A stretch of 64,000 nt of DNA from Halococcoides cellulosivorans. Its GTDB lineage: Archaea > Halobacteriota > Halobacteria > Halobacteriales > Haloarculaceae. The notes beneath the pieces were generated by a model. It was not told where the DNA came from, did not search any database, and worked only from the letters and a program-made list of their open reading frames with translations. Positions 35,348 to 56,562 of this stretch are shown here, in pieces. Position numbers and translations under genes: made by a program. The stretch covers positions 2,220,836 through 2,284,835 of the forward strand of contig NZ_CP028858.1 in NCBI RefSeq assembly GCF_003058365.1. Direction: 5' to 3'. Position 1 is the first letter of the stretch. Every line of letters starts with the position of its first letter.

Positions 35348-38300
35348 ATGTCGGAATCGATCGTACAGTTAGGGAGAGCGATGGATCCGGATTTTGATCG
35401 ACCAGGGGTGGCGGGGGCATTGGCAGTCGTAATGACATTAGCCGCGATAACAGGGGGTATCGCGGTGTCGAGCGTCACTGGAGCGGACGCAGCCGTTCAG
35501 CCCGATCTGGCGGTCGACACGACCGTCTCGGGCCAGGAAGTGACGATTTCGGTCGACTACACCAACGCCTCCGCGATCAACATCAAGGAGGTGCCAAACA
35601 CCTGGACCGTCGTCGATAGTTCGGACGGTCTGGCCGAGAAATCACCAGAGGGAGAGAGTTATCGCAACGTCGGCTGGGTCTGGATGGACAGCCAGACCGG
35701 CACGGAGACCGTGACCCTCGAAGTCCCCGAGGGTGAGAGCGGGCCCTTCTCGCTCCCGGTCGAGGCCGAGAATATCGACGGCGGAACGGTCTCGGAGACG
35801 GCCGAGTTCTCACTCGACGAGAGCACCGACACCGAGACGACCGACAGTGCGGGCGACACCGCCCCGGGCCTGACGGTCCAGGGCGATGCCGTCGCCCCCG
35901 GTGAGACCGCGACGGTCTCGGTGACCGCCGAGAACGTCGGTCTCCTCTCGCTCGACGGCATCCCGACCGACTGGACGATCGAGAGCTACGACACGGCCGG
36001 CGGGTCACCGATCGAGGAGACCACCGACGGCACCGACGAGATCGCCTGGGCCTGGGATCAGAACCAGGACAGCGTCACCGTCGTGGTCGCACTGGCCGTC
36101 CCCGCGGACGCCGCGATCGGTGAGACGGCACTCACCGCCGAGGCCGCCAACGACGCCGAGGGGACAACCACCGCACCGATCGGCATCGACGTGATCGAAG
36201 AGGAGGAAACGGTACACACCCACCAATCCGGTGAAACGACCGACACACCCGATGTCACCGACGAGCCGACGGATTCCACTGGTGACGATCCGACCGAGAC
36301 GGTGACGCCGACCGACGAACCGGCCGTCAGTCTCGAAGGAGCAGTCGTCGCGCCCGGCGAGACCGCGACCGTCACGGTGACTGCCGAGAACGTCGGCTTG
36401 CTCTCGCTCGACGGCATCCCGACCGACTGGACGATCGAGAGCTACGACGCGGCCGGTGGGTCGCCGGTCGTCGAGACCACCGACGGCACCGACAAGATCG
36501 CGTGGACGTGGGATCAGAACCAGGACAGCGTCGCCATCGACGTGGCCCTGTCCGTCCCTGCGGACGCCGCGATCGGTGAGACGGCACTCACCGCCGAAGC
36601 CGCCAACGACAACGAGCTGATCGCCAGCCACACCGCGTCTGTGCTGGTGAGCGAGGGCGTCCCGACCGACGAGACGCCGACCGACGAACCGACGACCGAG
36701 GAGACACCTGGCGACGAACCGACGACCGAAGTCGGTGACGAACCGACCGAGCAGACCCCGAGTGACAACCCGACGACCGTCTCACCCGGGAGCCCCGCCC
36801 TCAGCGTCGGGAGCGGAGTCGTCGCCCCCGGTGAGAGCGTCACTGTCTCGCTCGTCGCGGAGAACGTCGGCCTCCTCTCGCTCGACGGCATCCCGACCGA
36901 CTGGACGATCGAGAGCTACGACGCGGCCGGGGGATCACCGATCGTCGAGCCCACCGACGGCACCGACAAGATCGCCTGGACCTGGGATCAGAATCAGGAT
37001 CGGGTCGAGATCGGCGTGACCCTGTCCGTGCCCGCGGACGCCGCGCTCGGTGAGACGGCACTCACCGTCGAGGCCGCCAACGACAACGACATCTCGGTCA
37101 CCGACACCGCCACCGTCTCGGTGACCGACGAGACGTCGACCGACGAACCGACGCCCGTCCCCGGGAGTCCGTCCGTCAACGTCGAGGGAGGCGCAGTCAT
37201 GCCCGGTGAGACCACGACGGTCTCGCTGACTGCCGAGAACGTCGGCCTCCTCTCGCTCGACGGCATCCCGACCGACTGGACGATCGAATCCATCGACGAC
37301 GCCGGCGGGTCACCGATCGACGAGACCACCGACGGCACCGACAAGATCGCCTGGACCTGGGACCAGAACCAGGACAGCGTCGCCATCGACGTGACCCTGT
37401 CCGTGCCCGCGGACGCCGCGCTCGGTGAGACGGCACTCACCGCCGAAGCCGCCAACGGGGCTGATCTCTCGGCCACCGACACCGCCACCGTCTCCGTGAC
37501 CGACGAGGAGGTCCCGACCCAGGAGACGCCCGAAGAGGCCGTCCTGAGCATCGAACCCGTCGAGACCGAGGACGGGTACGCGGCCTCGCTCGTGCTCTCC
37601 GAGGCTCCGAACGGCATCTCTGGCTACGAGGTGACGCTGGCCAGCGACAACACGGACGTCCTGCAAGTCGCCGGCAGTGACCGAGTGAGTCCGGTCACCT
37701 GGGGCGACGCGTTCGACACGATCAACACGGTGAATCGGGCCGACGACGGCTCCGCGATCACGCTGAAAGCCACCAATTCGGAGGACATGCACGAACCGGT
37801 GACGGACATCGAACTCGCGACGATCGACCTCGACGCGATGGGTGAGGGGTACGCTGAGCTCGACGTCGGCGTCCACGATATCCAGGACGGTGGAGGATAC
37901 ACCATCCCGGTGACCACCGAGTCCGAAGTCCTCGCCGTCGGTGGCGCGCCCGAGACGACCGACCCGGGCACCGACGAGCCGAGCGAGACGACGGTCACGC
38001 CCGTCGATAATCCGGGCTCCAGTGAGGACCCGGCCGTCAGCGTCACTGGCGGCACGGTCCGCCCCGGTGAGACCGTCACGGTCGACATCACCGCCGACAA
38101 CGTCGACGCGCTCTGGTTGGGAGGCATCCCGAACAGCTGGACGGTCGAGTCCGTCGACGACCAGGGCACGACGCCGATCGTCCAATCCTACGACCACGGT
38201 CAACAGATCGCCTGGAACTGGGGCAGCACGGTGACCGACGTCTCGGTCTCCGCGACGGTCGCCATTCCGGAGAACGCGACGATTGGCGACACGACACTCA

Positions 38301-40345
38301 ACGCGACAGGGAATCTGGCGGGCCTCCCCCAAACGAGTGACACGGCGACCGTCTCGGTCGTCGACGAGGTCCCGACCGACGAGCCGACCACCGACGAGAC
38401 GCCCGAGCCGGCCGTCCTGAGCATCGAACCCGTCGAGACCGAGGACGGCTACGCGGCCTCGCTCGTGCTCTCCGAGGCCCCGAACGGCGTCTCTGGCTAC
38501 GAGGTGACGCTGGCCAGTGACAACGCGAGTGTCCTGCAGGTCGCCGGCGGCGATCGAGTGAGCCCGGTCACCTGGAGCGACGCGTTCGACACGATCAACA
38601 CGTACTCGCGGGCCGACGACGGCTCCGCGATCACGATAGAAGCCACGGATCCGAACGAGATGGTTCAGGACGGGGCCGAGGACATCGAACTCGCGACGAT
38701 CGAGATGGACGCGATGAGTGAGGGGTACGCCGGACTCTCCGTCGGCGTCCACGAACTCCAGGACGACACTGGCGCCGACATCCCGGTGACCACCGCGTCC
38801 GAAGTCGTCGCCGTCGGTGGCGCGCCCGAGACGACCGACCCGGGCACCGACGAGCCGAGCGAGACGACGATCACGCCCGTCGACGAGCCCGGCTCCGGTG
38901 ACGATCCGACCGTCGACGCCACCGATGGCACGGTCCGCCCCGGAGAGACCGTCACGGTCGACATCACCGCCGACAACGTCGACTCGCTCTGGTTGGGAGA
39001 CATCCCGAACAACTGGACGATCGAGTCCGTCGACGATCAGGGCACGACGCCGATCATCCAAACGTTCGACAGCGGCCAGGAGATCGCCTGGAACTGGGGC
39101 GGCACGGTGTCCGACGTCTCGATCTCCGTGACGTTCGCCATTCCGGAGAACGCGTCGATCGGTGATACCACGCTCACCCTCGGAGCGAACGGTCTGGACT
39201 CCGTCGACACGTCGACCATCTCGGTCGTCGAGGAGCTCCCGACTGACGAACCGACTACCGAGCCCGGCACGGACGAACCCGGCACGGACGAGCCTGGCAC
39301 GGACGAGCCTGGTACGGACGAGCCCGGTACGGACGAGCCTGGTACGGACGAACCTGGCACCGACGAGCCTGGTACGGACGAGCCTGGTACGGACGAGCCT
39401 GGCACGGACGAACCCGGTACGGACGAACCTGGCACCGACGAGCCTGGTACGGACGAGCCTGGTACGGACGAGCCTGGTACGGACGAGCCTGGTACGGACG
39501 AGCCTGGTACGGACGAGCCTGGTACGGACGAGCCTGGTACGGACGAACCCGGTACGGACGAGCCTGGTACGGACGAACCCGGTACGGACGAACCCGGTAC
39601 GGACGAACCCGGTACGGACGAGCCTGGCACCGACGAGCCGAGTGACGCACTCTCGGTCTCTGTCGCGAACGCGAGCGTCGCACCCGGTGAGAACGCGACC
39701 CTGACTCTGACGGCCGAGAACGCCGGCATGCTCTCGCTCGACGACATCCCGGCCAACTGGACGATCGAATCCGTCGAGGCTGGCGGAGCCACGTCGATCG
39801 ACGAGACAGTCAACGACAGCCAGGAACTCGCCTGGACCTGGGATCAGAACCAGGACAGCCTCAGCCTGAACGTCACGCTCGGCGTGCCGGCGAACGCCTC
39901 GACCGGAGCGGTCACGCTCACGGCCACCGCGTGGTCGAGTGACGACAGCAGCGTGACCGACACCGCCACCGTGTCGGTGACCGAGTCGGCCTCGGAGACG
40001 CCGACCGAAACGGATACCCAGGACGACGAGGGTGACAGCGGCGGGAATGGCGGCGGCGTCGGCGGCGGTGGAAAGAAAGAGATCCCGACGGACGACGACT
40101 CGGGGTCCGACGACGGTGACACCGAACCGATCGACCCGATCGACCCGGACACCGAGTCTGACGACGACTCCGGTGGTGCGGCGGAACCCTCGACCGACGA
40201 CGCGGCCTCGACCGCGACGACGACCGGTGAGGCAGTCGACCCGCAGACGGAGTCCCAGACCGACGCCGGTGGGCCTGGCTTCGGGCCGCTGGTCGCGCTG
40301 ATCGCACTCGTCGCCGCCACGCTCGTCGCCGTGCGTCGAGACTAA
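35348..40345 (+). CDS. Scaffoldin-like surface protein: two cohesin-like domains, eight repeat modules, PGF-CTERM-like anchor
   Basis: 1665 residues. The N-terminus (VAGALAVVMTLAAITGG) is a Sec-type signal without a twin-arginine motif. Eight copies of a roughly 105-residue module follow (residues 50-156, 175-283, 326-435, 484-592, 609-717, 896-1004, 1188-1293, 1434-1544). Their core is VAPGETATVTVTAENVGLLS then IPTDWTIESYDAAGG and IAWTWDQNQDS. Two 135-residue domains (732-866, 1023-1158) resemble type I cohesins. They show GISGYEVTLASDNTDVLQV, a tail IELATIDLDAMGEGYAELDV and a final VLAVGG. Thr/Asp/Glu/Pro linkers separate the domains, with 25 PGTDE repeats at 1306-1430. The C-terminus GPGFGPLVALIALVAATL then RRD resembles a PGF-CTERM archaeosortase signal. 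The likely role is a cell-surface scaffold docking dockerin enzymes. The cohesin call rests on pattern and on the six dockerins in the window. Confidence 0.85.
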   Translation: MSESIVQLGRAMDPDFDRPGVAGALAVVMTLAAITGGIAVSSVTGADAAVQPDLAVDTTVSGQEVTISVDYTNASAINIKEVPNTWTVVDSSDGLAEKSPEGESYRNVGWVWMDSQTGTETVTLEVPEGESGPFSLPVEAENIDGGTVSETAEFSLDESTDTETTDSAGDTAPGLTVQGDAVAPGETATVSVTAENVGLLSLDGIPTDWTIESYDTAGGSPIEETTDGTDEIAWAWDQNQDSVTVVVALAVPADAAIGETALTAEAANDAEGTTTAPIGIDVIEEEETVHTHQSGETTDTPDVTDEPTDSTGDDPTETVTPTDEPAVSLEGAVVAPGETATVTVTAENVGLLSLDGIPTDWTIESYDAAGGSPVVETTDGTDKIAWTWDQNQDSVAIDVALSVPADAAIGETALTAEAANDNELIASHTASVLVSEGVPTDETPTDEPTTEETPGDEPTTEVGDEPTEQTPSDNPTTVSPGSPALSVGSGVVAPGESVTVSLVAENVGLLSLDGIPTDWTIESYDAAGGSPIVEPTDGTDKIAWTWDQNQDRVEIGVTLSVPADAALGETALTVEAANDNDISVTDTATVSVTDETSTDEPTPVPGSPSVNVEGGAVMPGETTTVSLTAENVGLLSLDGIPTDWTIESIDDAGGSPIDETTDGTDKIAWTWDQNQDSVAIDVTLSVPADAALGETALTAEAANGADLSATDTATVSVTDEEVPTQETPEEAVLSIEPVETEDGYAASLVLSEAPNGISGYEVTLASDNTDVLQVAGSDRVSPVTWGDAFDTINTVNRADDGSAITLKATNSEDMHEPVTDIELATIDLDAMGEGYAELDVGVHDIQDGGGYTIPVTTESEVLAVGGAPETTDPGTDEPSETTVTPVDNPGSSEDPAVSVTGGTVRPGETVTVDITADNVDALWLGGIPNSWTVESVDDQGTTPIVQSYDHGQQIAWNWGSTVTDVSVSATVAIPENATIGDTTLNATGNLAGLPQTSDTATVSVVDEVPTDEPTTDETPEPAVLSIEPVETEDGYAASLVLSEAPNGVSGYEVTLASDNASVLQVAGGDRVSPVTWSDAFDTINTYSRADDGSAITIEATDPNEMVQDGAEDIELATIEMDAMSEGYAGLSVGVHELQDDTGADIPVTTASEVVAVGGAPETTDPGTDEPSETTITPVDEPGSGDDPTVDATDGTVRPGETVTVDITADNVDSLWLGDIPNNWTIESVDDQGTTPIIQTFDSGQEIAWNWGGTVSDVSISVTFAIPENASIGDTTLTLGANGLDSVDTSTISVVEELPTDEPTTEPGTDEPGTDEPGTDEPGTDEPGTDEPGTDEPGTDEPGTDEPGTDEPGTDEPGTDEPGTDEPGTDEPGTDEPGTDEPGTDEPGTDEPGTDEPGTDEPGTDEPGTDEPGTDEPGTDEPGTDEPGTDEPSDALSVSVANASVAPGENATLTLTAENAGMLSLDDIPANWTIESVEAGGATSIDETVNDSQELAWTWDQNQDSLSLNVTLGVPANASTGAVTLTATAWSSDDSSVTDTATVSVTESASETPTETDTQDDEGDSGGNGGGVGGGGKKEIPTDDDSGSDDGDTEPIDPIDPDTESDDDSGGAAEPSTDDAASTATTTGEAVDPQTESQTDAGGPGFGPLVALIALVAATLVAVRRD
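37541..37945 (+). other. Cohesin-like domain 1
   Basis: Residues 732-866 of the surface protein. It starts VLSIEPVETEDGYAASLVLS and shows the cohesin-like strand pair GISGYEVTLASDN then VLQV. A middle charged strand (DDGSAITLKATNSEDM) follows, and then ELATIDLDAMGEGYAELDV before the final strand. It is about 85 percent identical by eye to domain 2, which argues for recent duplication. Confidence 0.7.
38414..38821 (+). other. Cohesin-like domain 2
   Basis: Residues 1023-1158. It is nearly the same as domain 1 up to VTLASDN, and differs mainly in the loops (DASV, SDAFDTINTYSRADD, DPNEMVQDGAED). It sits between repeat modules 6 and 7, so each cohesin is flanked by the spacer modules. Confidence 0.7.
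39263..39637 (+). repeat. 25 tandem 15-base repeats encoding PGTDE
   Basis: The unit is 15 bases with consensus CCTGGTACGGACGAG, varying at third codon positions only (CCC/CCT, GGC/GGT, ACG/ACC, GAA/GAG), so the encoded PGTDE is invariant in all 25 copies. It forms an extended Pro/Thr/Asp/Glu spacer of 125 residues between repeat modules 7 and 8, likely O-glycosylated or simply rigid. The number of copies probably varies between strains by slippage. Confidence 0.97.
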
Positions 40346-40384: not shown

Positions 40385-41287
40385 ATGGAGAGAACAGCGA
40401 CCCACGGCGAGGGGGTGGCCCGCGTCGCGACGCTCGCGGTCGTCGTGATCCTCGTGGCCAGTCTGGCCGGGCCGGCGCTGGCCGACCCGACCCAGGAGTC
40501 GTTTCCGAGAGCCTCGGGGAGCGATCACGTCGTCGCGCCGGGCGAGACGGTCACCATAGAACTGGCGGTCCAGGACGTCAATAGCATCAAATTCGAGCCA
40601 GTGCCGACCGACTGGGAGATCGTCTCCAGCACCAGTGACGGGACCGACGGGCAAGTCGAGCAGTTGGACTCCGGCGACCGGGTCGTCGGATGGGTGTTCC
40701 CCGAGGCCGTGGCGAATCGAACCGCGACGGTCACACTGCGCGTCCCCGAGGACGCCGCCACCGACCAGTATCGGTTCAACGTGAGCGCCGAACACGTCGA
40801 GAACGGCATGGCGCACGCCTCGACGATCGTCAACGTGAACCCGGACGCCGATTCACTCGTCATCCCCGAACCGAACGCCCACGGCCCATACACTGTCGTC
40901 GAGGGCGAGTCCGCCCCACTCGACCCGGTCTGGAGTGAAGACCCCGACGGCACGGTCGCGGGCGTCACATGGCTCCAGTTGGGTGGCAACGGCGAAATCG
41001 ACAACCAACACTTCTTCCCGCCGAACGTCATCGCCACGAACGAAACGGCGACCGTCGAGTTGCAGATCCTCGACAACGACGGCCTGCTGGCGACCCAATC
41101 CGCACAGATCCTCGTTCTCCAGTCGGAGTTCGCCCCCGAGACCCCGACGCCCGAGGAGTCGACGCCACGCGACCCGCCCCGGACGCCACTCGACGACGAG
41201 AGCGGGGCCTCACCAGTGATCGGCGGGATCGGAACGCTGGTGTTGGTCTTCTTGCTGGTCGTGCTCGTCTACCACCGCCGCGAGTGA
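40385..41287 (+). CDS. Membrane-anchored companion of the scaffoldin, sharing its repeat module
   Basis: 300 residues from ATG 40385. A Sec-type signal (VATLAVVVILVASLAGPALA) ends near residue 33. Residues about 48-155 repeat the scaffoldin module (VVAPGETVTIELAVQDVNSI, PVPTDWEIVSS, VVGWVFPEAVANRTATVTLRVPEDA). A PKD/Ig-like domain follows (VVEGESAPLDPVWSEDPDGTV). The C-terminus has a membrane segment (VIGGIGTLVLVFLLVVLVYH) with a short cytoplasmic RRE tail. It lies 39 bases after the scaffoldin, and probably shares its transcript. It may be an anchoring or assembly partner; no catalytic motif is present. Confidence 0.85.
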   Translation: MERTATHGEGVARVATLAVVVILVASLAGPALADPTQESFPRASGSDHVVAPGETVTIELAVQDVNSIKFEPVPTDWEIVSSTSDGTDGQVEQLDSGDRVVGWVFPEAVANRTATVTLRVPEDAATDQYRFNVSAEHVENGMAHASTIVNVNPDADSLVIPEPNAHGPYTVVEGESAPLDPVWSEDPDGTVAGVTWLQLGGNGEIDNQHFFPPNVIATNETATVELQILDNDGLLATQSAQILVLQSEFAPETPTPEESTPRDPPRTPLDDESGASPVIGGIGTLVLVFLLVVLVYHRRE

Positions 41288-43923: not shown

Positions 43924-44997
43924 GTGTCTCACGAATCCGAACAGACCGGGGGACTCGATCCCCCCGCCCCCGACGAGACGAGCGATGCCCAGCAGATCGG
44001 TGAACTGGTCGAGCGGTTACGGGAGTTCCGCGACCCACACCAGTCCGATCCAGCCAGCGACGGCGTCCTGATCGACCAACTCGAAGAGGTCGAACAGCGA
44101 CTGCTGGCCTTCGGGCGCGCGCTCGGTGGCGACCCCAACGACGTGACTGACCTCCCCTTCACCGAGGAGGCGGCCCTCCACAGCATGCCCGAGCCACTGT
44201 ACGTCCGTCACGACCGGGAGATGCTCAACCAGATCACGAGCTGGCTGCTTCAAGACCAGCACATCGGGTTGATCAGTCCCTACGGCACGGGCAAGACCGC
44301 GTTCCGCGAGATCGTCCGTCGTGATCTGGGCAATCACGACGACTTCGTCGTCGCCTTCCTGGACAATCCCGAACAGACCACGCCCCGAAAGCTGTACGCG
44401 ACCGCGCTCGAAGCCGCCTACGACGCGGGCTATCGCATCGACACCAGTGAGTTCCGGCAGGTCCGAGACGGCATTCCGTGGGTGACCGAGGACACCAAAG
44501 CCGCCGTCAGCGCCATCGTCGACATGATCCGCGACGACGGCGGGACACTCCTGCTCGTCATCGACGAGATCGAAGTCCTGCCCGAACAGCTCATGTCGAC
44601 GATCCAGGTCGCCGGCGACACCGGCGTTCGCCTGTTCTTGCTCGGGACGCCCGAGGGCAAGCGCCGCCTGGCGGAGTTGCGCGGCACGCTCGATTCACGA
44701 TTGCGCTACTACGAGGGGATCGATCCGTTCGACCCGAAACACGTCTCGGAGTACATCGCGCGCTCGATCGCGTACTTCCGCGGCGAGGAGTTCGACGGCA
44801 CGCGCCCGGGGCTGTTCACCGAGGACGCGATCAAAGACATCCAACGGCGGACCGACGGCGTCCCCCGCGAGGTCCGCATCGAGTGTCGCGAACTGTTCAC
44901 GCGCGCGGCGTTCGTCTGGTATCGCACCGGCCAGGACATCGACCGCATCAAGATCACACCCGAACTCCGGCATCGGCGGTTCGGGATGGGCCGTTAG
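43924..44997 (+). CDS. AAA+ ATPase of unknown role
   Basis: 357 residues from GTG 43924 (VSHESEQTGG). The first 75 residues are acidic and probably disordered. Walker A is SPYGTGKTAF (about 121-130), Walker B is LLLVIDEIEVL (about 200-210), and the sensor-like LFLLGTPEGKRRLAELRGTLDSRLRYYEGIDPF follows. The C-terminus contains a winged-helix-like stretch (LFTEDAIKDIQRRTDGVPREVRIECRELF). It resembles Orc1/ExeA-type ATPases, but the replication motif set is incomplete; the function is open. It overlaps the GH5 stop by 2 bases, tail to tail. Confidence 0.75.
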   Translation: MSHESEQTGGLDPPAPDETSDAQQIGELVERLREFRDPHQSDPASDGVLIDQLEEVEQRLLAFGRALGGDPNDVTDLPFTEEAALHSMPEPLYVRHDREMLNQITSWLLQDQHIGLISPYGTGKTAFREIVRRDLGNHDDFVVAFLDNPEQTTPRKLYATALEAAYDAGYRIDTSEFRQVRDGIPWVTEDTKAAVSAIVDMIRDDGGTLLLVIDEIEVLPEQLMSTIQVAGDTGVRLFLLGTPEGKRRLAELRGTLDSRLRYYEGIDPFDPKHVSEYIARSIAYFRGEEFDGTRPGLFTEDAIKDIQRRTDGVPREVRIECRELFTRAAFVWYRTGQDIDRIKITPELRHRRFGMGR

Positions 44998-46409
44998 ATC
45001 CGCTCGAACAGCGCCAGCACGTCCTGGGAGTCGACGTCGCCGTCGCCATCGAAATCGAACATCGTGGGCGTGTTCTGGACCGCCGGCGCGTCGGTGTTCT
45101 GGAACAGCGTGTTCACGTCGGGGAAATCGAGGTCGCCGTTCCCACTCACGTCCTCGAACACCCCGTCGCCGTCGGGATCGGTCGGGCGAGCGTCCCCGAG
45201 AATCGGGGGTTCCGGGGGCGAATCGCCCCCACTCGCGGCGTCCGCGAGCCACTGGCGGATGAAGCCGCCGTGCTCCTCGGGGCCGTCTTTGAGGGCCCAG
45301 GGCTGACTACTGTCGCCGGTCTCCTCGAAGAAGGTCGGCGCCCACGAGTGATCAAAACACCAGCCGAACCAGCCCACGTTGTCGTACGAATCGACCCACT
45401 CGCGGAACGGCTCACCCCACCCCGAGGTCGTCCCGTAGCCCTCGTCGTCCTCGGGGAGGCTCGGGTCCCAGCCGAACTCCGTGATGGCGACGGGCACGTC
45501 CTCGGCGGGCGCGCCGTACACCGAGTCGAACTCCGAGGGCTGGCCGTTCGGCGGGTAGATATGGCCGGCGTAGACGAGATTGTCGCCCTCGAAGGGGTAC
45601 TCCGGGGCGAAGTCCGTCCGGGAGGTCCAGGACGGCGAGCCGACAATAATCGGCGTCTCGGGCGCGTGCGCGCGGATCTCGTCGACCCAGGGCTGGGCGG
45701 TCTTCTGCCAGAGTGTCCACGACTCCTGGCGGTTCGACACGTCGCTACTGCCGTACGATGACCACGCCACCGGCAGCGTCGGCTCGTTGAACAGTTCGTA
45801 CAGCACGTGGTCGTCGTCAGCGAACGCGGGCGCGACGGCGCTCCAGAAGTCCATCAGCAACTCGTCGGTCGGCACGCTCGCGTCGAAGCCCAGATCGTCG
45901 ATCGTCTCGGCCCACCCGTCCGCGACCATCCCCTCGGCGTTCGCCCGTGTCTCGACGTACGGCCGGATCAGATGGAAGTCGATCATGGCGTACACGCCCC
46001 GATCGGCCAGAACGTCGACCGCCGGGCGCAGCAACTCCTCGACGACGTACGCTGGGCCCTGCTCGATGAAGGGCCACTCCGTGACGGGCAGTCGGATCGC
46101 GTTCGGCTGCCACTGTTCGCCGTCGGTCGCCCGCTCCAGGACCTCCGTCGTCGAGAACGGGTACCAGTCGTTGGCGATGAAATCGAGCCCCGCGGTCGCG
46201 AAGCCTCGCAACTCCACGTTCTCGCCGGCCGGATCTCTGATCCAGCGGCCCTCGGTGTGCAACGGTGGCGTCGACCCGCCGACCGCGCCCGCCGTCCCGA
46301 CGAGGCCGCCCGTCGTGACGCCGGCGACGCCCGCCCCCGTCGCCCGGAGGAAGGTTCGTCGATCGATCGTGCGCTCGATACCGTCGATGGCGCTGCGGTC
46401 CCCTCGCAT
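44994..46409 (-). CDS. GH5-type glycoside hydrolase (cellulase-like) with C-terminal dockerin
   Basis: 471 residues from ATG 46407-46409. A Tat signal (DRRTFLRATGAGVAG, R17-R18) leads to the catalytic domain (about 45-390). It has the GH5 pattern: proposed acid/base Glu209 in YELFNEP and nucleophile Glu311 in AITEFGWDP. The C-terminal 65 residues are a dockerin with two calcium loops (DVSGNGDLDFPDV and DFDGDGDVDSQDV). GH5 enzymes cleave beta-1,4-linked glucans and mannans by a retaining mechanism; the exact substrate is not shown. There is no separate carbohydrate-binding module. Its promoter includes AATCAAACT and a TATA box on the minus strand. Converges with the AAA gene and is followed upstream by GH43 in the same orientation. 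Confidence 0.9.
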   Translation of the reverse strand: MRGDRSAIDGIERTIDRRTFLRATGAGVAGVTTGGLVGTAGAVGGSTPPLHTEGRWIRDPAGENVELRGFATAGLDFIANDWYPFSTTEVLERATDGEQWQPNAIRLPVTEWPFIEQGPAYVVEELLRPAVDVLADRGVYAMIDFHLIRPYVETRANAEGMVADGWAETIDDLGFDASVPTDELLMDFWSAVAPAFADDDHVLYELFNEPTLPVAWSSYGSSDVSNRQESWTLWQKTAQPWVDEIRAHAPETPIIVGSPSWTSRTDFAPEYPFEGDNLVYAGHIYPPNGQPSEFDSVYGAPAEDVPVAITEFGWDPSLPEDDEGYGTTSGWGEPFREWVDSYDNVGWFGWCFDHSWAPTFFEETGDSSQPWALKDGPEEHGGFIRQWLADAASGGDSPPEPPILGDARPTDPDGDGVFEDVSGNGDLDFPDVNTLFQNTDAPAVQNTPTMFDFDGDGDVDSQDVLALFERI

Positions 46410-46436: not shown

Positions 46437-46462
46437 AAATATATTCGTACAAAAGTTTGATT
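46437..46462 (-). promoter_or_regulatory. GH5 promoter with AATCAAACT element
   Basis: On the minus strand AATCAAACT (46454-46462) precedes the TATA box AATATATTT (46437-46445) by 8 bases. The TATA box is 28-36 bases before the ATG, so a short or leaderless transcript is predicted. The same AATCAAACT occurs near the GH10 TATA box. Confidence 0.6.
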
Positions 46463-46492
46463 AAATTATCCAGTACGCAGATCGAACGCCGA

Positions 46493-47755
46493 TCAGACCG
46501 ACTCGAACAGCGCGAGCACGTCCTGGGCGTCGACCGTCCCGTCGCCCGAGAAGTCGTACGCGTCGGCGTGGTCCTGGACGGACGCCGACTCGATGTTCTG
46601 AAACAGCCGATTCACGTCCGGGAAGTTCAGCGTCTCGTCGCCCGAGAGGTCCTCGTATCGGCCGTCGCCGTCCAGGTCTCGCGGGACGGTCCCGTCGATC
46701 GGATCGGGGCCCGTCGGCGCGGAATCGACCGTCGGACGCGGATGCTCCCGACAGGGCTGGCCGTCACAGCCGACGACCGGCCAGTCCGCGTCGTCGAACC
46801 GAATCCGGTCGACCATCAGCCGTCGCCCCGGATCGTCTCCGAGCGCTTCGATGTGATACAGCATCCACCAGTCGCCCGCCGCGTCCCGAATGGCCGTGTT
46901 GTGACCCGTCCCGACGAACTCCTCGGTCGGGGAGAGGACGGCCTGGCCGGCGTGGTGGTCGTGAATCGTTCGGAGATCGCGGCCGTCACGCGTGCGATAC
47001 GGGCCGAACAACGATTCGGACCGGCCGACCTCGATTTCGTAGGTACTCTCCACCCCGTCACAGCAGTGCCCCGTCGAGCAAAACAGGTAGAAGTAGTCGT
47101 TCTCACGGACGAGCATCGCGCCCTCACGGTTGTCGCCCGCCAACTGCCAGGCGGTCCCGGGGACGTAGTCCATCCCGTCGGGCGTCAACTCGACGCCCCA
47201 GATGCCGAAGAAACTCCCCCAGATCAGGTACGGCGTGCCATCCAGGACGACCAACTCAGAGTCGATGCAGTTGGTCTGCGAGAGGTCCTCGTTCCGGAAG
47301 ACCGGGCCGTGGTCGGTAAAGGGGCCCTCGGGGTGGTCGGCGGTCGCGACTCCGATCCCCGGGTTGTCCTGACTGCCCCACGTCGAGTGCGAATAATAGA
47401 GATACACGCGATCGTCGAAACGGTTGACGTCGGGAGCCCAGAAACCCGCCTCGGGGTCGCCGTGCCAGTCGGGGTCCCAGTCGACGGCCTTGCCCTGTGG
47501 CTCCCAGGTCACCAGGTCGTCCGACCGGGCGAACGCCCGCCCGGTGCCGTAGACGTAGTACGTGCCCGACCACTCGATCACCGAGACGTCACCGAACCCC
47601 GGCGGGCCCGTCGGATTGTGGAACTGCCCGCCGGTCTCGTCGGCCACCCCCGATCGGGTGGCCGTCCCGATTCCCCCGAGTGCCGCCGTCGCGCCCCCTA
47701 TTCGGGCCAGCATCGACCGACGACTGAGTCCCCCCGCGCCCGGATCCCCGTGCAT
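46493..47755 (-). CDS. GH43-type arabinanase/xylosidase-like enzyme with C-terminal dockerin
   Basis: 420 residues from ATG 47753-47755. A Tat signal (LSRRSMLARIGGATAALGGIG, R12-R13) precedes a five-bladed propeller. Proposed GH43 catalytic residues are Asp56 (GFGDVSVIEW), Asp165 (CIDSELVV) and Glu211 (NREGAML). Other marks are WAPDVNRFDDRVYLYY and GTGHNTAIRDAAGDWWMLYH. GH43 enzymes invert beta-xyloside or alpha-arabinoside bonds. The last 70 residues are a dockerin (DLSGDETLNFPDV, where one loop position is changed, and DFSGDGTVDAQDV). The gene runs with GH5 and GH10 on the minus strand, separated by 83 and 81 bases. Confidence 0.88.
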   Translation of the reverse strand: MHGDPGAGGLSRRSMLARIGGATAALGGIGTATRSGVADETGGQFHNPTGPPGFGDVSVIEWSGTYYVYGTGRAFARSDDLVTWEPQGKAVDWDPDWHGDPEAGFWAPDVNRFDDRVYLYYSHSTWGSQDNPGIGVATADHPEGPFTDHGPVFRNEDLSQTNCIDSELVVLDGTPYLIWGSFFGIWGVELTPDGMDYVPGTAWQLAGDNREGAMLVRENDYFYLFCSTGHCCDGVESTYEIEVGRSESLFGPYRTRDGRDLRTIHDHHAGQAVLSPTEEFVGTGHNTAIRDAAGDWWMLYHIEALGDDPGRRLMVDRIRFDDADWPVVGCDGQPCREHPRPTVDSAPTGPDPIDGTVPRDLDGDGRYEDLSGDETLNFPDVNRLFQNIESASVQDHADAYDFSGDGTVDAQDVLALFESV

Positions 47756-47800: not shown

Positions 47801-47815
47801 CGTTCGCAGCGAACG
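47801..47815 (-). promoter_or_regulatory. 6-3-6 palindrome upstream of GH43
   Basis: CGTTCGCAGCGAACG has perfect six-base arms around CAG. A TATA-like AATTCATTTG lies 10 bases nearer the gene at 47781-47790, 26-35 bases before the ATG. The arm and spacing pattern matches that near GH10 (6-3-6), though the bases differ. Confidence 0.45.
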
Positions 47816-47836
47816 TAACGGTAGCGCGAGGACCGA

Positions 47837-49549
47837 TCAGACCGACTCGAACAGCGCCAGGACGTCCTGGGAGTCGAGGTCGCCGTCGCCGTCGAAGTCG
47901 TAGTACTGGGTGTTGTCCTGGGCCACCGTCGAATCGGTGTTCTGGAACAGCGTGTTCACGTCGGGGAAGTTCAGTTCACCGTCGCCCGAGAGGTCCTCGT
48001 ACAGGCCGTCGTCGTCGGGGTCGGTCGCGCCCTCGGGCCAGTCGGGGCCCTCGGGCGTCGGATCGACCGACCCTTCGGCGTCGACGGTGACCGTGACCTG
48101 CGTCGTCCCGCTCGAATCGGTGACCTCGACGCTCGTCGTACTCGACTCGCCGTCCGCCGTGGCGGTGATCTCGTGACTTCCCAGGTAGGCACTCGTCACG
48201 AACACGCCCGACCCGTCGGCGGTGCCGGACTCGCTGGTCCACCACTCGTCGAAGACGAGGTTCTTCCAGACGTCGAGCGCGGGCTTTTCGGACCAGTCGT
48301 CCTGGAAGAACGGCGCCTCGTTCTCCCAGTGGCGACCGTCCCAGAACCCCCAGATGATGAAGTCGGTCACGTTGGGGTGACCGTACGCCGTCTTCATCCA
48401 GGTGTACATCAGATCGGCGCGTTCGTCCTGGCCGTTCCAGTCGCTGCCGTTGTACATGTCGAACTCGGTGATCTTCAGGTCGGCGTCGTAGTCGGTGAAA
48501 TTCGAGAGGCGCTCGTTGATCTCGCTGTAAGTCAGCCGACCGTCCGGATCACTGTTGTTCTCGCCGGGGTTAGAACTCCGCGCCCCCACGTGGCTCTGGA
48601 ACCCGATCATGTCGATATCGATGCCGTCGTCGATCAGCGACTCGATCTGGCTCTGATATCGGCCCTCGGTGTACGGCCACTGGCCTTCGAGGGTGTTGAA
48701 GTCGTTCACCCCGATATCGATGTCCTCACCGGCGACGTTCTGGGCCGTCTCGTACCAGTCGGTGAGTTGATCTGACGTCCACGGGAGCACGTCGCCGGTC
48801 CAGGGCTCTTCGGAGTCGATCTGGTCGCCGTAGATCGCCTTCTGCATCGCGAAGTGATGCATCGCCTCGTTTACAATTTCCCACTCGTCGACCTGGCCCT
48901 CGTAGTGGGTGATGATCTCTTCGATGTGCTCGGTCGAGCGCTGTTTGATCGTCTCGGCGTCGCCGTTGTCGATCGCCGTCTGGACGTCGTTGGGGATGGC
49001 TCCGACGCCGGTCCGGCCCCAGACACAGACGTGGCCACGGACGTACAGGTCGTGGTCGACCAGCCACTCCGTACACCGGTCGGCACGGTCGGTGTTGTCC
49101 TCCCAGAACTTCCACTTGTGGCCGTTCTCCAGCACCGCGGTGTTGAACAGTTCGGGGATGACCTGCCGGTACTGGTCCCCGTCGCTGTACTGGTCCCAGA
49201 CACGGGCGTTGACCGCCGTCCCGAACCCGTAGTCGTGCTCGGTCATCTCGACCGAGACGTCGGCGTTCGGGATCGGTCGCCCCTCGGGGTCCTCGACGAC
49301 GACTTCGAGGTCGCTGGTCTGGTTCTCGGCAATCCGCTGGTCGGCCAGTTGTTCCCAGTCGGGGTCACGCCGGTCCTTCCAGTGAGTCTCGGCGCTCGCC
49401 GGCGTTGCCGACGCGCCCAGCAGCGTCGCCCCACCCGCGACGCCCGCCGATTTGACGAACGATCGCCGGTCGACGTCGAGGTCTGTCAGTCGCTCGGTGC
49501 CCTCCGCCGCGCCGCCCGCGTCCGCGTGAGTATCGGGTGTCTCAGTCAT
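47837..49549 (-). CDS. GH10 endo-beta-1,4-xylanase with C-terminal dockerin
   Basis: 570 residues from ATG 49547-49549. Tat signal DRRSFVKSAGVAGGATLLGA (R28-R29). The N-terminal region after the signal (about 78-105) includes an Ig-like strand (LEVVVEDPEGRPIPNADVSVEM). Then comes the GH10 barrel with acid/base Glu228 (DEWEIVNEAMHH), nucleophile Glu362 (KITEFDMYNG) and FAMQKAIYG and FQSHVGARSS loops. A short Ig-like linker leads to the dockerin (DLSGDGELNFPDV, DFDGDGDLDSQDV). GH10 enzymes cleave xylan by retention. A very long leader with a hairpin lies before the start, described separately. Confidence 0.93.
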   Translation of the reverse strand: MTETPDTHADAGGAAEGTERLTDLDVDRRSFVKSAGVAGGATLLGASATPASAETHWKDRRDPDWEQLADQRIAENQTSDLEVVVEDPEGRPIPNADVSVEMTEHDYGFGTAVNARVWDQYSDGDQYRQVIPELFNTAVLENGHKWKFWEDNTDRADRCTEWLVDHDLYVRGHVCVWGRTGVGAIPNDVQTAIDNGDAETIKQRSTEHIEEIITHYEGQVDEWEIVNEAMHHFAMQKAIYGDQIDSEEPWTGDVLPWTSDQLTDWYETAQNVAGEDIDIGVNDFNTLEGQWPYTEGRYQSQIESLIDDGIDIDMIGFQSHVGARSSNPGENNSDPDGRLTYSEINERLSNFTDYDADLKITEFDMYNGSDWNGQDERADLMYTWMKTAYGHPNVTDFIIWGFWDGRHWENEAPFFQDDWSEKPALDVWKNLVFDEWWTSESGTADGSGVFVTSAYLGSHEITATADGESSTTSVEVTDSSGTTQVTVTVDAEGSVDPTPEGPDWPEGATDPDDDGLYEDLSGDGELNFPDVNTLFQNTDSTVAQDNTQYYDFDGDGDLDSQDVLALFESV

Positions 49550-49853
49550 GAATGGAAAGTTGGGCGCTCGATTTCGAGCGCCCGTGTGATCGGACCGAAA
49601 GCGAGGGGAACCGCCAGTCCGTGTTCGTCCGCCGATGCAGTGGGGGACGGCCCTGGTCCGCACGATCGCGGACGGTGAGTCGGACCGGCCCAAGATGGTG
49701 TGGGTCGACGATCGTCTCGTGGACCCACCCCCGGACCGATCGTCGGGTGCGGCCGATCTCCCCGGTATTAATTTCGGCACGGCGTGAGTAAATATTTGTC
49801 GGTAGTTTGATTCGACATGTGATGTCGGAGACTCGAATCACCACGGAGCGACA
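49550..49853 (-). promoter_or_regulatory. GH10 leader and promoter region (304 bases without a gene)
   Basis: A perfect hairpin (GGGCGCTCG arms, ATTT loop) sits at 49562-49583, 12 bases before the ATG. Two TATA candidates (minus strand) lie at 49767-49775 and 49790-49798, implying a leader of about 180-220 bases. Upstream of the second lies AATCAAACT (49804-49812) and, adjoining it, the 6-3-6 palindrome CGACATGTGATGTCG (49813-49827). No protein-coding frame is convincing here. Confidence 0.6.
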
Positions 49854-50915
49854 TCACTCGTCGCGGTGTTCGAGTGTGACCGACCGGGCGACGTAGTCCT
49901 CGACGCTCGCGCCGGGACTCGCGATCGTGACCTCCCTGTCGCCGGTATCGAGCACGAGCACGCGTTCGAGGGAGAACCGTTTCTCGCCCGGTTCGATCAT
50001 GCCCTGGGACACGTCGACGACATCGCCAGTCAGCGTCTCCGTCCGCCCGGTGTCCGTCGAGGTCCCCTCGACGGTCGCCGTGAGCGGGGTGCCCTCTCGC
50101 CGGTGGAGTGTCGCGTGGACCAGCGCCCACGGGAACACCTCGAAGGTGTGAGGGAGTTCGACGGCATCGGGAACGGCGATTTCGGTGCCGAGACGCCACT
50201 CGTTGCCCAACAGCGACCCGATGACCCGGGGGGCCATGTTCCGCTGTTCGAGATAGATCGCCGGGCTGTACGATCCCGCGGATGCGCCGGCGGCGTTCGG
50301 GATGACATAGAGCGCCTGGAAGTAATCGACACCCAGGCCCGCCTCGTCCCACGTCGCGAGGTCCTCCCAGACCCGGACGACGCTGGCGATCTCACCGAGC
50401 GGGCGGCCCTCGATGTCCGCGCCGTCTTCGGTGACGACCAAGACGAGGACGCCGCGGTCGACCGCCTCGCGGAGTTCGGGCGCGAGGTCTTCCAGCAAGT
50501 CCCGCCGCGCGACGAGGATGAGCCACTCGGTCGCACTGGTGATCATCGACCGGCAGCGATCGACGACCGCCGGGCGGTGGTTGAGCACGTCGACGTTCCC
50601 GATCGGATCGCTGGGTTTGGCGTACTGGCTCTCGATCCGGTCGAGGATCTTGTCGTGGCTTTTCGACATCACGGTCTCGACGTGGTCCGGTGGCGACGCC
50701 TGGATCACCGTCGGCTGGAGGTGATCGTTCACGTCGACCAGACCGCGCCGCTCCAGTCGCTCGACGATGCGATAGACGTGTCTCGACGTGACCTCTGCTC
50801 GATCGGCTACGTCAGACACGCGCGCCTCGTTGAGATCCAAAACGGCGACGTAGACGTCGATCTCCGCCTCGGAGAACCCCCACCGTTTCAGCTCCCGCCG
50901 GAGCTCGTCCGCCAT
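49854..50915 (-). CDS. TrmB-family sugar-responsive transcription regulator
   Basis: 353 residues from ATG 50913-50915. The N-terminal winged helix (LKRWGFSEAEIDVYVAVLDLNEARVSDVADRAEV then HVYRIVERLERRGLVDV) is typical of TrmB. The rest (about 100-353) resembles the TrmB sugar-binding domain. It includes ATEWLILVARRDLLEDLAPELREAVDRGV and a beta-rich C-terminal part. TrmB-type proteins repress or activate sugar and polysaccharide genes. The gene sits between GH10 and the PL14-like lyase and is transcribed in the same direction. The most likely targets are the surrounding dockerin enzymes. Confidence 0.9.
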   Translation of the reverse strand: MADELRRELKRWGFSEAEIDVYVAVLDLNEARVSDVADRAEVTSRHVYRIVERLERRGLVDVNDHLQPTVIQASPPDHVETVMSKSHDKILDRIESQYAKPSDPIGNVDVLNHRPAVVDRCRSMITSATEWLILVARRDLLEDLAPELREAVDRGVLVLVVTEDGADIEGRPLGEIASVVRVWEDLATWDEAGLGVDYFQALYVIPNAAGASAGSYSPAIYLEQRNMAPRVIGSLLGNEWRLGTEIAVPDAVELPHTFEVFPWALVHATLHRREGTPLTATVEGTSTDTGRTETLTGDVVDVSQGMIEPGEKRFSLERVLVLDTGDREVTIASPGASVEDYVARSVTLEHRDE

Positions 50916-50981: not shown

Positions 50982-52145
50982 TCAGATCGACTCGAACAGC
51001 GCGAGCACGTCCTGGAGGTCGACCACGCCGTCACCCGAGACGTCGTACGCCTCGACGTGGTCCTGGACCGCCGCCGACTCGGTGTGCTGGAACAGGCGGT
51101 TCACGTCGGGGAACGCAACTTTGCCGTCGCCGTCGATGTCCTCGTGGAGGCCATCGCCGTCGAGATCGCGCGGCGTCTCGCCCTCGATCGGGTCGAGATC
51201 CGGGGTCGGGTCGGTCGTCGTCTCCGGAGTCGTGGTCGACCGATCGGGCCCGTTCCAGATCGGCGCCTCGGAGATCACGAACTCGTCGTAGTAGATGTGT
51301 TCGTCCCGGGAGTGCGCCCACTTCGGCGTGTTCCCGCCGCCGAAAAACGAGGAGAAATAGAATCGGTTGATCCCCCGGTCGGGGACGTCCCAGAAGCGGA
51401 GATCGCGCCGCTCGAAGACCTTCTCGCCGTCGAACCAGCCTTCGAGGACGCCGTCGTGTTCGCCGGGCGTGTTCATCACGACGTGGTGTTCGATCTCGTG
51501 GGTGCGATCACGCTCGAAGTAGACCTGCTCACCGCCGTCGTCCCAGTGCATGTTCTCGCCGTACTCGCCGGGTTGATCGGGGTGATAGACGTAGAACATC
51601 GCGAGCCCACGGTCCGGGTCCTCGTCGATCGGGTCGCGCCACATCATCCGGGCAGACCAGCCGTTCGTCCCGTCGGGGTCGTCACCGCCCGTGACCGCAT
51701 ACACGCCGTCGGCCGACCCGATCAGACCGGGGAGTTTCCCGCCCGCGTTCGAGAACTCGAAGCCCGCGCCGAACCGGACGCGGTAGCCCAGATACAGTTC
51801 GTCGTAGTGACGGCCGAGCGGGACCATCATGTCGACGCCGCCATTGCCGTTCCCGGCCTCGCCCGCGGGATACTGGGTGTCGAGCATCGTCGCGCCGTCC
51901 TCGCGGACGACGTCGACGTAGGTGGTATCGACACTCCAGGGGTTCAGGCCGTCCCACTGGGACTCGTCGACCGTCCAGTCGCCCACCGGACGGTCCTCGA
52001 AATCACGGTGGAGCACGACGGGATCGTCGCTCCGGACCGACGCCGGAAGGCCCGCACCGAGGACGCCGACCCCGAGCGCGGCCAGCACCGCTCGCCGGGT
52101 GGGCGTCGCGTGTCCGTGCAGTCGTGGTCTGGTCGGTCGGGCCAT
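50982..52145 (-). CDS. PL14-like polysaccharide lyase with C-terminal dockerin
   Basis: 387 residues from ATG 52143-52145. The Tat signal is TPTRRAVLAALGVGVLGAGLPA (R17-R18). Residues 45-300 form a beta-jelly-roll with the PL14-type motif GGKLPGL (135-141) and the strand WSARMMWRD. Such lyases cleave uronate-containing polymers (alginate, glucuronan) by beta-elimination; assignment from this motif is moderate. A Thr/Pro linker (TTTPETTTDPTPDLDP) leads to a dockerin (DIDGDGKVAFPDV and DVSGDGVVDLQDV). It lies upstream of the TrmB gene, separated by 66 bases. Confidence 0.82.
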   Translation of the reverse strand: MARPTRPRLHGHATPTRRAVLAALGVGVLGAGLPASVRSDDPVVLHRDFEDRPVGDWTVDESQWDGLNPWSVDTTYVDVVREDGATMLDTQYPAGEAGNGNGGVDMMVPLGRHYDELYLGYRVRFGAGFEFSNAGGKLPGLIGSADGVYAVTGGDDPDGTNGWSARMMWRDPIDEDPDRGLAMFYVYHPDQPGEYGENMHWDDGGEQVYFERDRTHEIEHHVVMNTPGEHDGVLEGWFDGEKVFERRDLRFWDVPDRGINRFYFSSFFGGGNTPKWAHSRDEHIYYDEFVISEAPIWNGPDRSTTTPETTTDPTPDLDPIEGETPRDLDGDGLHEDIDGDGKVAFPDVNRLFQHTESAAVQDHVEAYDVSGDGVVDLQDVLALFESI

Positions 52146-55389: not shown

Positions 55390-56562
55390 TCAGACCGACT
55401 CGAACAGCGCGAGCACGTCCTGGGAGTCGACCACGCCGTCACCCGAGAAGTCGTACGCGTCGACGTGGTCCTGGACCGCCGGCGAGTCGGTGTGCTGGAA
55501 CAACGCGTTCACGTCGGGGAAGTCGAGTTTGTCGTTGCCCGAGACGTCCTCGTACAGGCCGTCACCGTCGAGGTCCTGCGGGACGCGACCGTCGATCGGG
55601 TCGACCTCGGGGGTCGGCGTCGTGGTCGGCTCCTCGGTCGTGGTCGTCGTCGGCGTCGACTCGACGGCCTCGAACTGGCGGACGTAGTCGACGGTCATCC
55701 GCTGTGGGAACTCCGTGGAGGCGTCGGGGTAGCCCGGCCAACTGCCGCCGACGGCGACGTTGAGCAGGAAGAAAAACTCGTGATCGAACACCCACTGGTT
55801 GCCTGCATCCTCGACCTCCGAACGGGTGACGTCGTGGAAGTGGGTGCCGTCGACGTACCAGTCGATCCGGTCTGGCTGCCAGACGATCGAGTAGGTGTGC
55901 GCCGACTGCGAGAAGTCCGTCCCGGCGTCGGTGTGGGAGGTGTTGATCCCGTCGGCGCCCGAGTAGCCGGGGCCGTGGACGGTCGCGTGGATCGTGTCTG
56001 TATTGTGACCGAGAAACTCCGCGACGTCGATCTCGCCGTCGTCGGGCCAGCCGTAGCCGCCGAGCATCCAGATCGCCGGCCAGAGCCCCTGGCCCTCGGG
56101 AAAGGTCGCGCGGACGTCCAGGCGCCCGTACTGCATCGTGTGTGCGCCCTGAGTCTTCAGACGACCGGAGGTGTACTCGTTGACCCCGTTCGGGGCGGTC
56201 TCCTCGCGGGCCTCGATGACGAGTGATCCGTCCTCGACGAAGGCGTTGTCACCCGCCGTGTAGTACTGTTCTTCCTCGTTGCCCCACGGACAGGTGCTCT
56301 TGTGGCGTCGGTTTTCACCACAGCCACCGCCGGTCTCGTGTGTCCAGGCGTCGTCGATCGATCCGTCGAACTCGTCGCGCCAGACCATCTGCCAGGACTG
56401 ATCGCCGGGGGCGTCGATCGCGGGCGCATCGTCCGGGACCGCCCGTGCGGCACCCATGGCGGCGAGGCCGCCGACCACGCCCGCCCCGACCGTCGAGAGG
56501 AAGCTCCGGCGAGTTCGGTCACGGGTCGATACTGTGCGTCGATCGGTGTTGTCGTCGGTCAT
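55390..56562 (-). CDS. GH16 laminarinase-like enzyme with C-terminal dockerin
   Basis: 390 residues from ATG 56560-56562. A Tat signal (RTRRSFLSTVGAGVVGGLAA, R18-R19) leads to a GH16 jelly-roll (about 55-295). The retaining catalytic signature is DGEIDVAEFLGH with Glu177 nucleophile, Asp179 and Glu182 acid/base. Other marks are WPAIWMLGG and WQPDRIDWYVDGT. Such enzymes cleave beta-1,3- or mixed-linked glucans. A Thr-rich linker (TPTTTTTEEPTTTPTPE) precedes the dockerin (DVSGNDKLDFPDV and DFSGDGVVDSQDV). The first calcium loop has Asn-Asp in place of Gly-Asp-Gly. It is separated from the kinase gene by 41 bases. Confidence 0.92.
   Translation of the reverse strand: MTDDNTDRRTVSTRDRTRRSFLSTVGAGVVGGLAAMGAARAVPDDAPAIDAPGDQSWQMVWRDEFDGSIDDAWTHETGGGCGENRRHKSTCPWGNEEEQYYTAGDNAFVEDGSLVIEAREETAPNGVNEYTSGRLKTQGAHTMQYGRLDVRATFPEGQGLWPAIWMLGGYGWPDDGEIDVAEFLGHNTDTIHATVHGPGYSGADGINTSHTDAGTDFSQSAHTYSIVWQPDRIDWYVDGTHFHDVTRSEVEDAGNQWVFDHEFFFLLNVAVGGSWPGYPDASTEFPQRMTVDYVRQFEAVESTPTTTTTEEPTTTPTPEVDPIDGRVPQDLDGDGLYEDVSGNDKLDFPDVNALFQHTDSPAVQDHVDAYDFSGDGVVDSQDVLALFESV

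Follow-up and report, generated by a model that had tools for sequence, protein, structure and literature searches.

The question raised by this locus of Halococcoides cellulosivorans is whether a TrmB-type sugar sensor encoded among dockerin-bearing polysaccharide-degrading enzymes controls their genes, and through which DNA site. The stretch analysed, here called the window, covers 64 kb of the 2,723,120-bp single-contig genome, and coordinates are window positions unless given as genome positions. Its glycoside hydrolase (GH) and polysaccharide lyase (PL) genes are transcribed from the minus strand in the order PL14, TrmB, GH10, GH43 and GH5, with GH16 further up. A sequence-only reading of the window had proposed a local regulon, based on matching 6-3-6 palindromes upstream of GH10 and GH43, the word AATCAAACT before the TATA boxes of GH10 and GH5, and the nearby TrmB gene. 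Our results likely reveal a regulon marked by the GH10 palindrome, which is not local and concerns xylanases. We assign a probability of roughly 0.5 to the reading that this is a small xylanase regulon with CGACATCACATGTCG as its candidate operator and TrmB as the most likely reader.

The GH10 palindrome is present as CGACATGTGATGTCG at 49813-49827. Genome-wide, its pattern CGACATNNNATGTCG occurs in three places, against about 0.09 expected from base composition, and a reversed-pattern control gave no match. All three places carry the same 15-mer, CGACATCACATGTCG, spacer included. These sites, A, B and C, and the promoter elements next to the third, including the transcription factor B recognition element (BRE), are as follows.

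Genome 416191-416205: site A, exact copy of CGACATCACATGTCG.
Genome 418066-418080: site B, exact copy of CGACATCACATGTCG.
49813..49827, minus strand: site C, operator candidate CGACATCACATGTCG, a 6-3-6 dyad; one of three identical genome copies with fixed spacing to the core promoter.
49803..49812, minus strand: A/T-rich 10-nt spacer AATCAAACTA, containing AATCAAACT; constant in length and variable in sequence across sites A, B and C.
49788..49802, minus strand: BRE/TATA core of the GH10 promoter, CCGACAAATATTTAC; score 19.2 in a model from 66 dockerin-gene upstream regions.
49764..49777, minus strand: -10 or WW-like element CCGAAATTAATACC, corresponding to the second block of the promoter model and lying downstream of the GH10 TATA box.

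At all three sites exactly 10 nt separate the palindrome from a downstream BRE/TATA core. Spacer and core read TAATATATGT-CCGATAAATTATTC at site A, TATAATAAAT-CCGATAATTTTATG at site B and AATCAAACTA-CCGACAAATATTTAC at site C. A search for the palindrome followed by N10 and CCGAYAAWWW, with up to three mismatches allowed, returned only these three places in the genome, each with no mismatch, and its control returned none. A mark of archaeal upstream activator sites is that several promoters carry a dyad at constant distance from the BRE, just upstream of it; this arrangement was found at 3 of 3 sites, 10 nt from CCGA. The upstream 70 nt of the sites share only 23-27% pairwise identity. Among six gapped alignments of the flanks, the downstream B-C pair, which includes the core promoter, was equalled by 1 of 300 shuffles, the upstream B-C pair by 21 of 300, and the remaining four by 75-183 of 300. 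Since the flanks are this dissimilar and most alignments fall within the shuffles, the three sites are not apparently a copied segment. A search for the exact 15-mer through 392 genomes of the order found it three times here and once in each of two of the 391 others, the latter being about the chance level (0.003 expected per genome of this size). Judging from its placement, the GH10 palindrome is a strong candidate for a xylanase operator in activator position, and very probably is one.

We next looked at the genes behind the sites. Behind site C lies the GH10 xylanase gene, whose predicted leader measures about 215 nt. The gene behind site A encodes a GH11 xylanase that has a carbohydrate-binding module (CBM6) and a dockerin-like end (PF00457, 1.3e-76); the predicted leader there is about 130 nt, and the gene lies 1.85 Mb from GH10 in contig coordinates. 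Site B lies about 160 bp past the GH11 stop codon on the same strand and may drive expression of a small protein or an RNA belonging to the regulon. Its region (L203:10066-10700, genome 418066 onwards) holds the candidate operator and a core promoter with no recognisable gene following. A dyad one half-site mismatch from the palindrome, CGACACTCGATGTCG, is found 84 bp upstream of site B. Among 299 genes examined, a sample of about 13% of the genome selected around dockerin genes, the only GH11 gene carries the element (1/1). The element is absent before the GH5, GH43, PL14 and GH16 genes of the window, so that the regulon, if any, concerns xylanases rather than the cluster. The genes flanking TrmB in the cluster are listed below.

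50982..52145, minus strand: PL14 polysaccharide lyase with dockerin module (PF21294, 5.3e-33; PF00404, 9.5e-6), upstream of trmB on the same strand.
47837..49549, minus strand: GH10 endo-xylanase (PF00331, 1.1e-36) with a Tat-like signal and a C-terminal dockerin-like module (PF10518 and PF00404, each under cut-off).
46493..47755, minus strand: GH43 enzyme with dockerin module (PF04616, 6.8e-55); regulon membership unsupported.
44994..46409, minus strand: GH5 enzyme with dockerin-like module (PF00150, 1e-28; dockerin match below cut-off); regulon membership unsupported.

The GH10 leader also contains a perfect dyad with 10-bp arms, GGGCGCTCGATTTCGAGCGCCC (49562-49583), which ends 12 nt before the start codon. 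The leader region folds better than 200 of 200 shuffles (z -3.3), and dyads with 10-bp arms (gaps 0-8, overlaps counted) number 22 in 359 kb.

The sensor placed between GH10 and the lyase by the sequence-only reading is indeed encoded there.

49854..50915, minus strand: TrmB-family regulator of the HVYR clade, candidate operator reader (PF11495, 2.6e-32; PF01978, 5.3e-14; clade support 100/100).

Both domains of the family score above their cut-offs: the N-terminal winged helix PF01978 with 52.2 bits (cut-off 25.6, residues 9-76) and the C-terminal sugar-binding domain PF11495 with 112.4 bits (cut-off 22.2, residues 108-349). Against NF047392, the haloarchaeal TrmB equivalog with a cut-off of 500, the protein reaches 82.6 bits. 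The canonical TrmB of the same genome, at genome 423399-424442, exceeds that cut-off with 543.3 bits. Of the 11 predicted genes at window positions 42.5-57 kb, only TrmB has a transcription-regulator Pfam family, and about 27 nt separate the end of its gene from site C. Two paralogues were found in the genome (47% and 45% identity), one directly downstream of a GH5 gene (genome 2461808-2462857) and the other within a run of GH5, GH43 and GH10 genes (genome 523610-524695). No core promoter was found in the 66-nt gap that separates trmB from PL14 (score -0.5). The GH5-linked paralogue scored -5.6, and the third a strong 26.4. Because they lack a core promoter of their own, trmB and the GH5-linked paralogue are each probably co-transcribed with an enzyme, in the case of trmB with PL14.

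The three paralogues form one clade (100/100) in a 54-row tree, for which six of 60 proteins were left out beforehand and which drew a long-branch warning. They share the recognition helix V[ST][SAR]RHVYR. Over the 60 proteins, a sample with many near copies, the residue after VY is Ser in 30, Asp in 12, Asn in six (one of them, L025, a misreading outside the helix), Gly in two, Glu in one and Arg in three, with six not read. The three with Arg are the paralogues, and none of the 51 other homologues whose helix was read has it. A profile search with the paralogues through the 392 genomes, scoring five candidates per genome, found one further close member, in another family (453 bits, against 313 for the next). 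This fourth member reads RHVYR and has no counterpart at E 1e-95 in 28 other genomes of its genus. Its gene is flanked on one side by two GH10 genes and on the other by a gene for a Sde182/malectin protein, with dockerin matches in all three. Thus 4 of 4 clade members found, in two families, lie beside dockerin glycosidases. None of 20 other TrmB neighbourhoods (sets of 15 and 5, 19-20 kb each, best match per genome) contained any of the five enzyme types or a dockerin; judged by eye from protein starts, many held alpha-glucan and ABC-transport genes and others housekeeping genes. Gene neighbourhood in two families therefore supports a tie between HVYR-type TrmB proteins and dockerin-bearing glycosidases. 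In the genome of the fourth member, a frame at L189:5470-5898 appears by eye to be the C-terminal end of a second TrmB fused into a GH5 piece, and by eye reads as the remains of a second regulator-enzyme pair.

These results suggest how the regulon could work. CGACATCACATGTCG directly precedes the BRE, ending 10 nt short of CCGA, at the promoters of GH10 and GH11 and at one further promoter. A dimeric regulator on it would occupy a fixed helix face next to transcription factor B (TFB) and the TATA-binding protein (TBP), and most likely activates when a xylan-derived sugar is present or a preferred sugar is absent. The place just upstream of the BRE is that of an activator, in the TrmB family included: according to the accessible parts of PMC4158304 and PMC10817205, TrmB sites upstream of BRE/TATA go with activation. 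TrmB is the most likely reader because its clade sits beside dockerin hemicellulases, because PF11495 is a sugar-binding domain, and because the half-sites are 3 nt apart, as in TACT-N3-AGTA. A sugar-loaded or sugar-free TrmB dimer would then bind the palindrome and help TFB and TBP at both xylanases. TrmB as the reader is plausible, at about even odds. We infer operator function, sign of regulation, ligand and TrmB as the binder from sequence. We tentatively propose, at a little below even odds, that the HVYR branch was recruited and multiplied in cellulose-using haloarchaea as regulators of dockerin hemicellulases, and that one member reads CGACATCACATGTCG, activating the unlinked GH10 and GH11 genes.

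Several observations weigh against this reading. The recognition helices of the clade are alike, so that related sites would be expected at its other members; no copy of the palindrome was found near the other two paralogues or the fourth clade member. Nor is there a clade TrmB near sites A and B, where the nearest TrmB is the canonical one, 5 kb away. Only one of the five GH10 genes among the 299 genes has the element. Downstream of site B, on the same strand, nothing exceeded Pfam or Rfam cut-offs and only weak open reading frames were seen. Over 19 promoters of the four TrmB loci, no other shared dyad clearly exceeded the null. With 4-letter arms, 4 of 40 null sets were as good. With 5-letter arms no dyad was shared by at least three promoters, and with one mismatch 7 of 40 null sets were as good. 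With 6-letter arms and one mismatch, TCGATC-N1 and CGTGAC-N0 occurred in three promoters each (0 of 40 null sets), a weak lead with differing positions. Finally, known haloarchaeal activators of pentose use are IclR-type, as described in the accessible part of PMC11519228.

The palindrome may thus be a genuine xylanase operator that is read by another protein, such as an XacR-like IclR regulator or the canonical TrmB near GH11, while the window TrmB controls something else. We consider this quite possible, if not favoured. In Haloferax, the IclR protein XacR switches on the catabolism of xylose and arabinose (PMC10448506, PMC11519228, accessible parts), which also counts against TrmB as the reader, and the canonical TrmB (NF047392, 543 bits) is encoded near sites A and B. 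The lack of palindromes near other clade members fits this explanation as well. Against it, the canonical site TACT-N7-8-GAGTA is unlike the palindrome and has no exact match in the 299 upstream regions, drawn from TrmB loci, from the remaining dockerin genes and from controls, where five published TrmB-type patterns were likewise not found as exact matches. Pfam annotation of 16 of the 17 predicted genes at genome 408001-427000 revealed only the canonical TrmB and a riboflavin-kinase/helix-turn-helix protein as regulator-like. None of these 16 genes around sites A and B has an IclR effector domain, the whole genome not having been searched for IclR genes. The closeness of the window TrmB gene to site C also argues for the window TrmB. 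By comparison, it is highly improbable that the palindrome has no regulatory role and represents a chance occurrence, a repeat or a hairpin at a transcript end. GC-rich dyads of short length abound in this genome, with 76 perfect 6-3-6 dyads of any sequence in the window. Yet the three sites are identical 15-mers at one offset from the core promoter, two of the three precede xylanases, and their upstream flanks are unrelated.

The local regulon of the sequence-only reading, in which TrmB would control GH10, GH43 and GH5 through both palindromes and AATCAAACT, we regard as very unlikely. The two palindromes differ in sequence and share, of 12 half-site letters, only the outer CGs; recurrence at promoters is seen for the GH10 one alone. 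The GH43 palindrome itself is where the sequence-only reading put it.

47801..47815, minus strand: palindrome CGTTCGCTGCGAACG of GH43, without relation to the GH10 site; its other copies in the genome are coding, and it is unsupported as operator.

It is present as CGTTCGCAGCGAACG at 47801-47815, and its pattern CGTTCGNNNCGAACG occurs in five places in the genome (0.3 expected from base composition). The other four are inside predicted genes and have differing spacers, two of which are mutual complements. Dyads of this size are common: some 6-arm dyad occurs in 109 of 222 control upstream regions, and 6-3-6 dyads number 0.74 per kb in upstream regions of the TrmB loci, against 0.90 in those of other dockerin genes and 0.95 in the controls. 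Counting 6-arm dyads with gaps of 0-10, the densities are 9.6, 5.5 and 7.9 per kb, slightly higher at the TrmB loci. We therefore find no support for the GH43 palindrome as an operator or promoter element, its other copies being intragenic with variable spacers. General dyad counts had suggested chance for both palindromes, a view that the genome-wide search overturned for the GH10 one.

The word AATCAAACT is present on the minus strand at 46454-46462 and 49804-49812, before GH5 and GH10 as the sequence-only reading had stated. It has five genome copies, with about 2.5 expected and three for the reversed word. Two copies are in this cluster, two are coding by eye and one lies in an A/T-rich, gene-poor stretch, and we discarded it as a genome-wide regulon mark. 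When six promoters were shuffled, some shared 9-mer appeared in 849 of 1000 sets; for an A/T-rich shared 9-mer the figure was 27 of 1000 with plain and 42 of 1000 with block shuffling. In favour of a local regulon, 8 of 66 dockerin-gene upstream regions but only 2 of 233 others contain a word within one mismatch of AATCAAACT, and none of 60 letter permutations reached eight (one reached the ratio). Two of these eight are -10 elements, however, and one site is counted for two divergent genes; the two control matches are likewise one site. Of the motifs named by the sequence-only reading, only the GH10 palindrome clearly exceeds chance, and the case for AATCAAACT is weak.

The two copies of AATCAAACT are also not equivalently placed. 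A promoter model built from the upstream regions of 66 genes with dockerin matches consists of GAAAATTTTAT (BRE/TATA), about 12 nt, and CGAAT, the position of which matches the WW element that haloarchaeal promoters carry at -10 (PMC6085418, accessible part). The enriched GAAAATTTTAT block was first taken as a new upstream element and then reread as the BRE/TATA core itself, because the start codon is within a few bases of the second block in several genes. The dockerin-versus-control comparison gave p values of about 1e-8 to 3e-15, which are inflated because the controls include genes inside operons. In the control regions (159 of 233 long enough), a weak form of the model was estimated in 45% when seeded with it, and 15 random seeds led to GC-rich words. 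By this model the GH5 TATA box assumed earlier, CGAATATATTTGG, is not the best one.

46459..46471, minus strand: likely GH5 TATA block GGATAATTTAATC, its 3' end overlapping AATCAAACT at 46454-46462; block score 15.5 bits, against 8.6 for CGAATATATTTGG.

The GH5 copy of AATCAAACT hence overlaps the end of a TATA block, whereas the GH10 copy fills the spacer between palindrome and BRE. The equivalent spacer segments at sites A and B are TAATATATG and TATAATAAA, so that the word is not conserved there. The coding strand carries GGGGA in 40 of the 66 upstream regions of dockerin genes and in 30 of 233 others, often shortly after the -10 element; region lengths differ between the two sets.

C-terminal dockerin-like modules are present on GH10, GH43, GH5, PL14 and GH16, part of them below the Pfam cut-off. 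In this 2.72-Mb archaeon, Pfam Dockerin_1 has 67 matches up to E 0.1, 49 of them over cut-off, mostly a very uniform C-terminal module. The window copies are at 10042-10191, 45000-45155, 46508-46657, 47852-48001, 50997-51143 and 55405-55554. Only two cohesin matches exceed the cut-off genome-wide, both in a single place (2197182-2198077). A predicted 1665-aa protein at 35348-40345 of the window has repeated units and a long GTDEP repeat and adjoins a smaller relative at 40385-41287; it is cohesin-like by eye only and has no Pfam cohesin match. An Rfam scan of the cluster returned nothing above the gathering threshold, and related-locus scans found no named related loci.

Our analysis provides one exact candidate site and one candidate protein in a cellulose-living organism. 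If the reading is true, one and the same factor is expected to work on two xylanase genes that are widely separated on the chromosome, and an archaeal plant-polysaccharide regulon would be built on a maltose-regulator fold. This suggests that a changed DNA-reading helix turned an alpha-glucan regulator family towards beta-linked plant polymers. The accessible literature on TrmB in haloarchaea, on TrmB with xylan or glycoside hydrolases, on Halococcoides and on haloarchaeal dockerins yielded nothing on the palindrome or these regulators. The available main text of PMC10267330 contains no occurrence of 'TrmB', 'dockerin' or 'regulat'. Accessible work on haloarchaea that use cellulose and mannan mentions an IclR gene within a mannan cluster, and no regulator tied to cellulose or xylan use was found in it.

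Among known systems, XacR-type IclR activators of Haloferax resemble our proposal in being haloarchaeal activators of pentose use. They belong to a different protein family and target xylose and arabinose catabolism, with secreted xylanases unmentioned in the accessible parts of the sources. The TrmB of Halobacterium and Haloarcula (VNG1451C, TrmB-Har; NF047392) is closer, as it is haloarchaeal and has the same two Pfam domains as the window TrmB. It is sugar-responsive, with sites upstream of BRE/TATA at activated genes (PMC10817205, PMC4158304, accessible parts). The window TrmB differs from it in its low equivalog score (82.6 against the cut-off of 500) and its recognition helix, and the genome has a canonical TrmB besides. 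The known site of that system, TACT-N7-8-GAGTA, is absent from the 299 regions scanned here, and its targets, as far as the accessible parts of the publications list them, are gluconeogenesis, transport and related genes, not xylanases. The TrmB of Pyrococcus furiosus and Thermococcus litoralis, which acts on the trehalose-maltose operon, binds TACT-N3-AGTA (PMC4158304, PMC10817205, accessible parts), a dyad with a 3-nt spacer like the GH10 palindrome. PDB 3qph is the sole solved-structure match of the window TrmB up to E 0.01 (E 3e-4). The Pyrococcus/Thermococcus site has other half-site letters, lies at the BRE/TATA and represses, whereas the candidate operator here is 10 nt upstream of the BRE CCGA. 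In the P. furiosus protein, Tyr50 and Asp51 matter for DNA binding (PMC4158304, accessible part), and Asp51 of its recognition helix aligns with Arg in the window TrmB.

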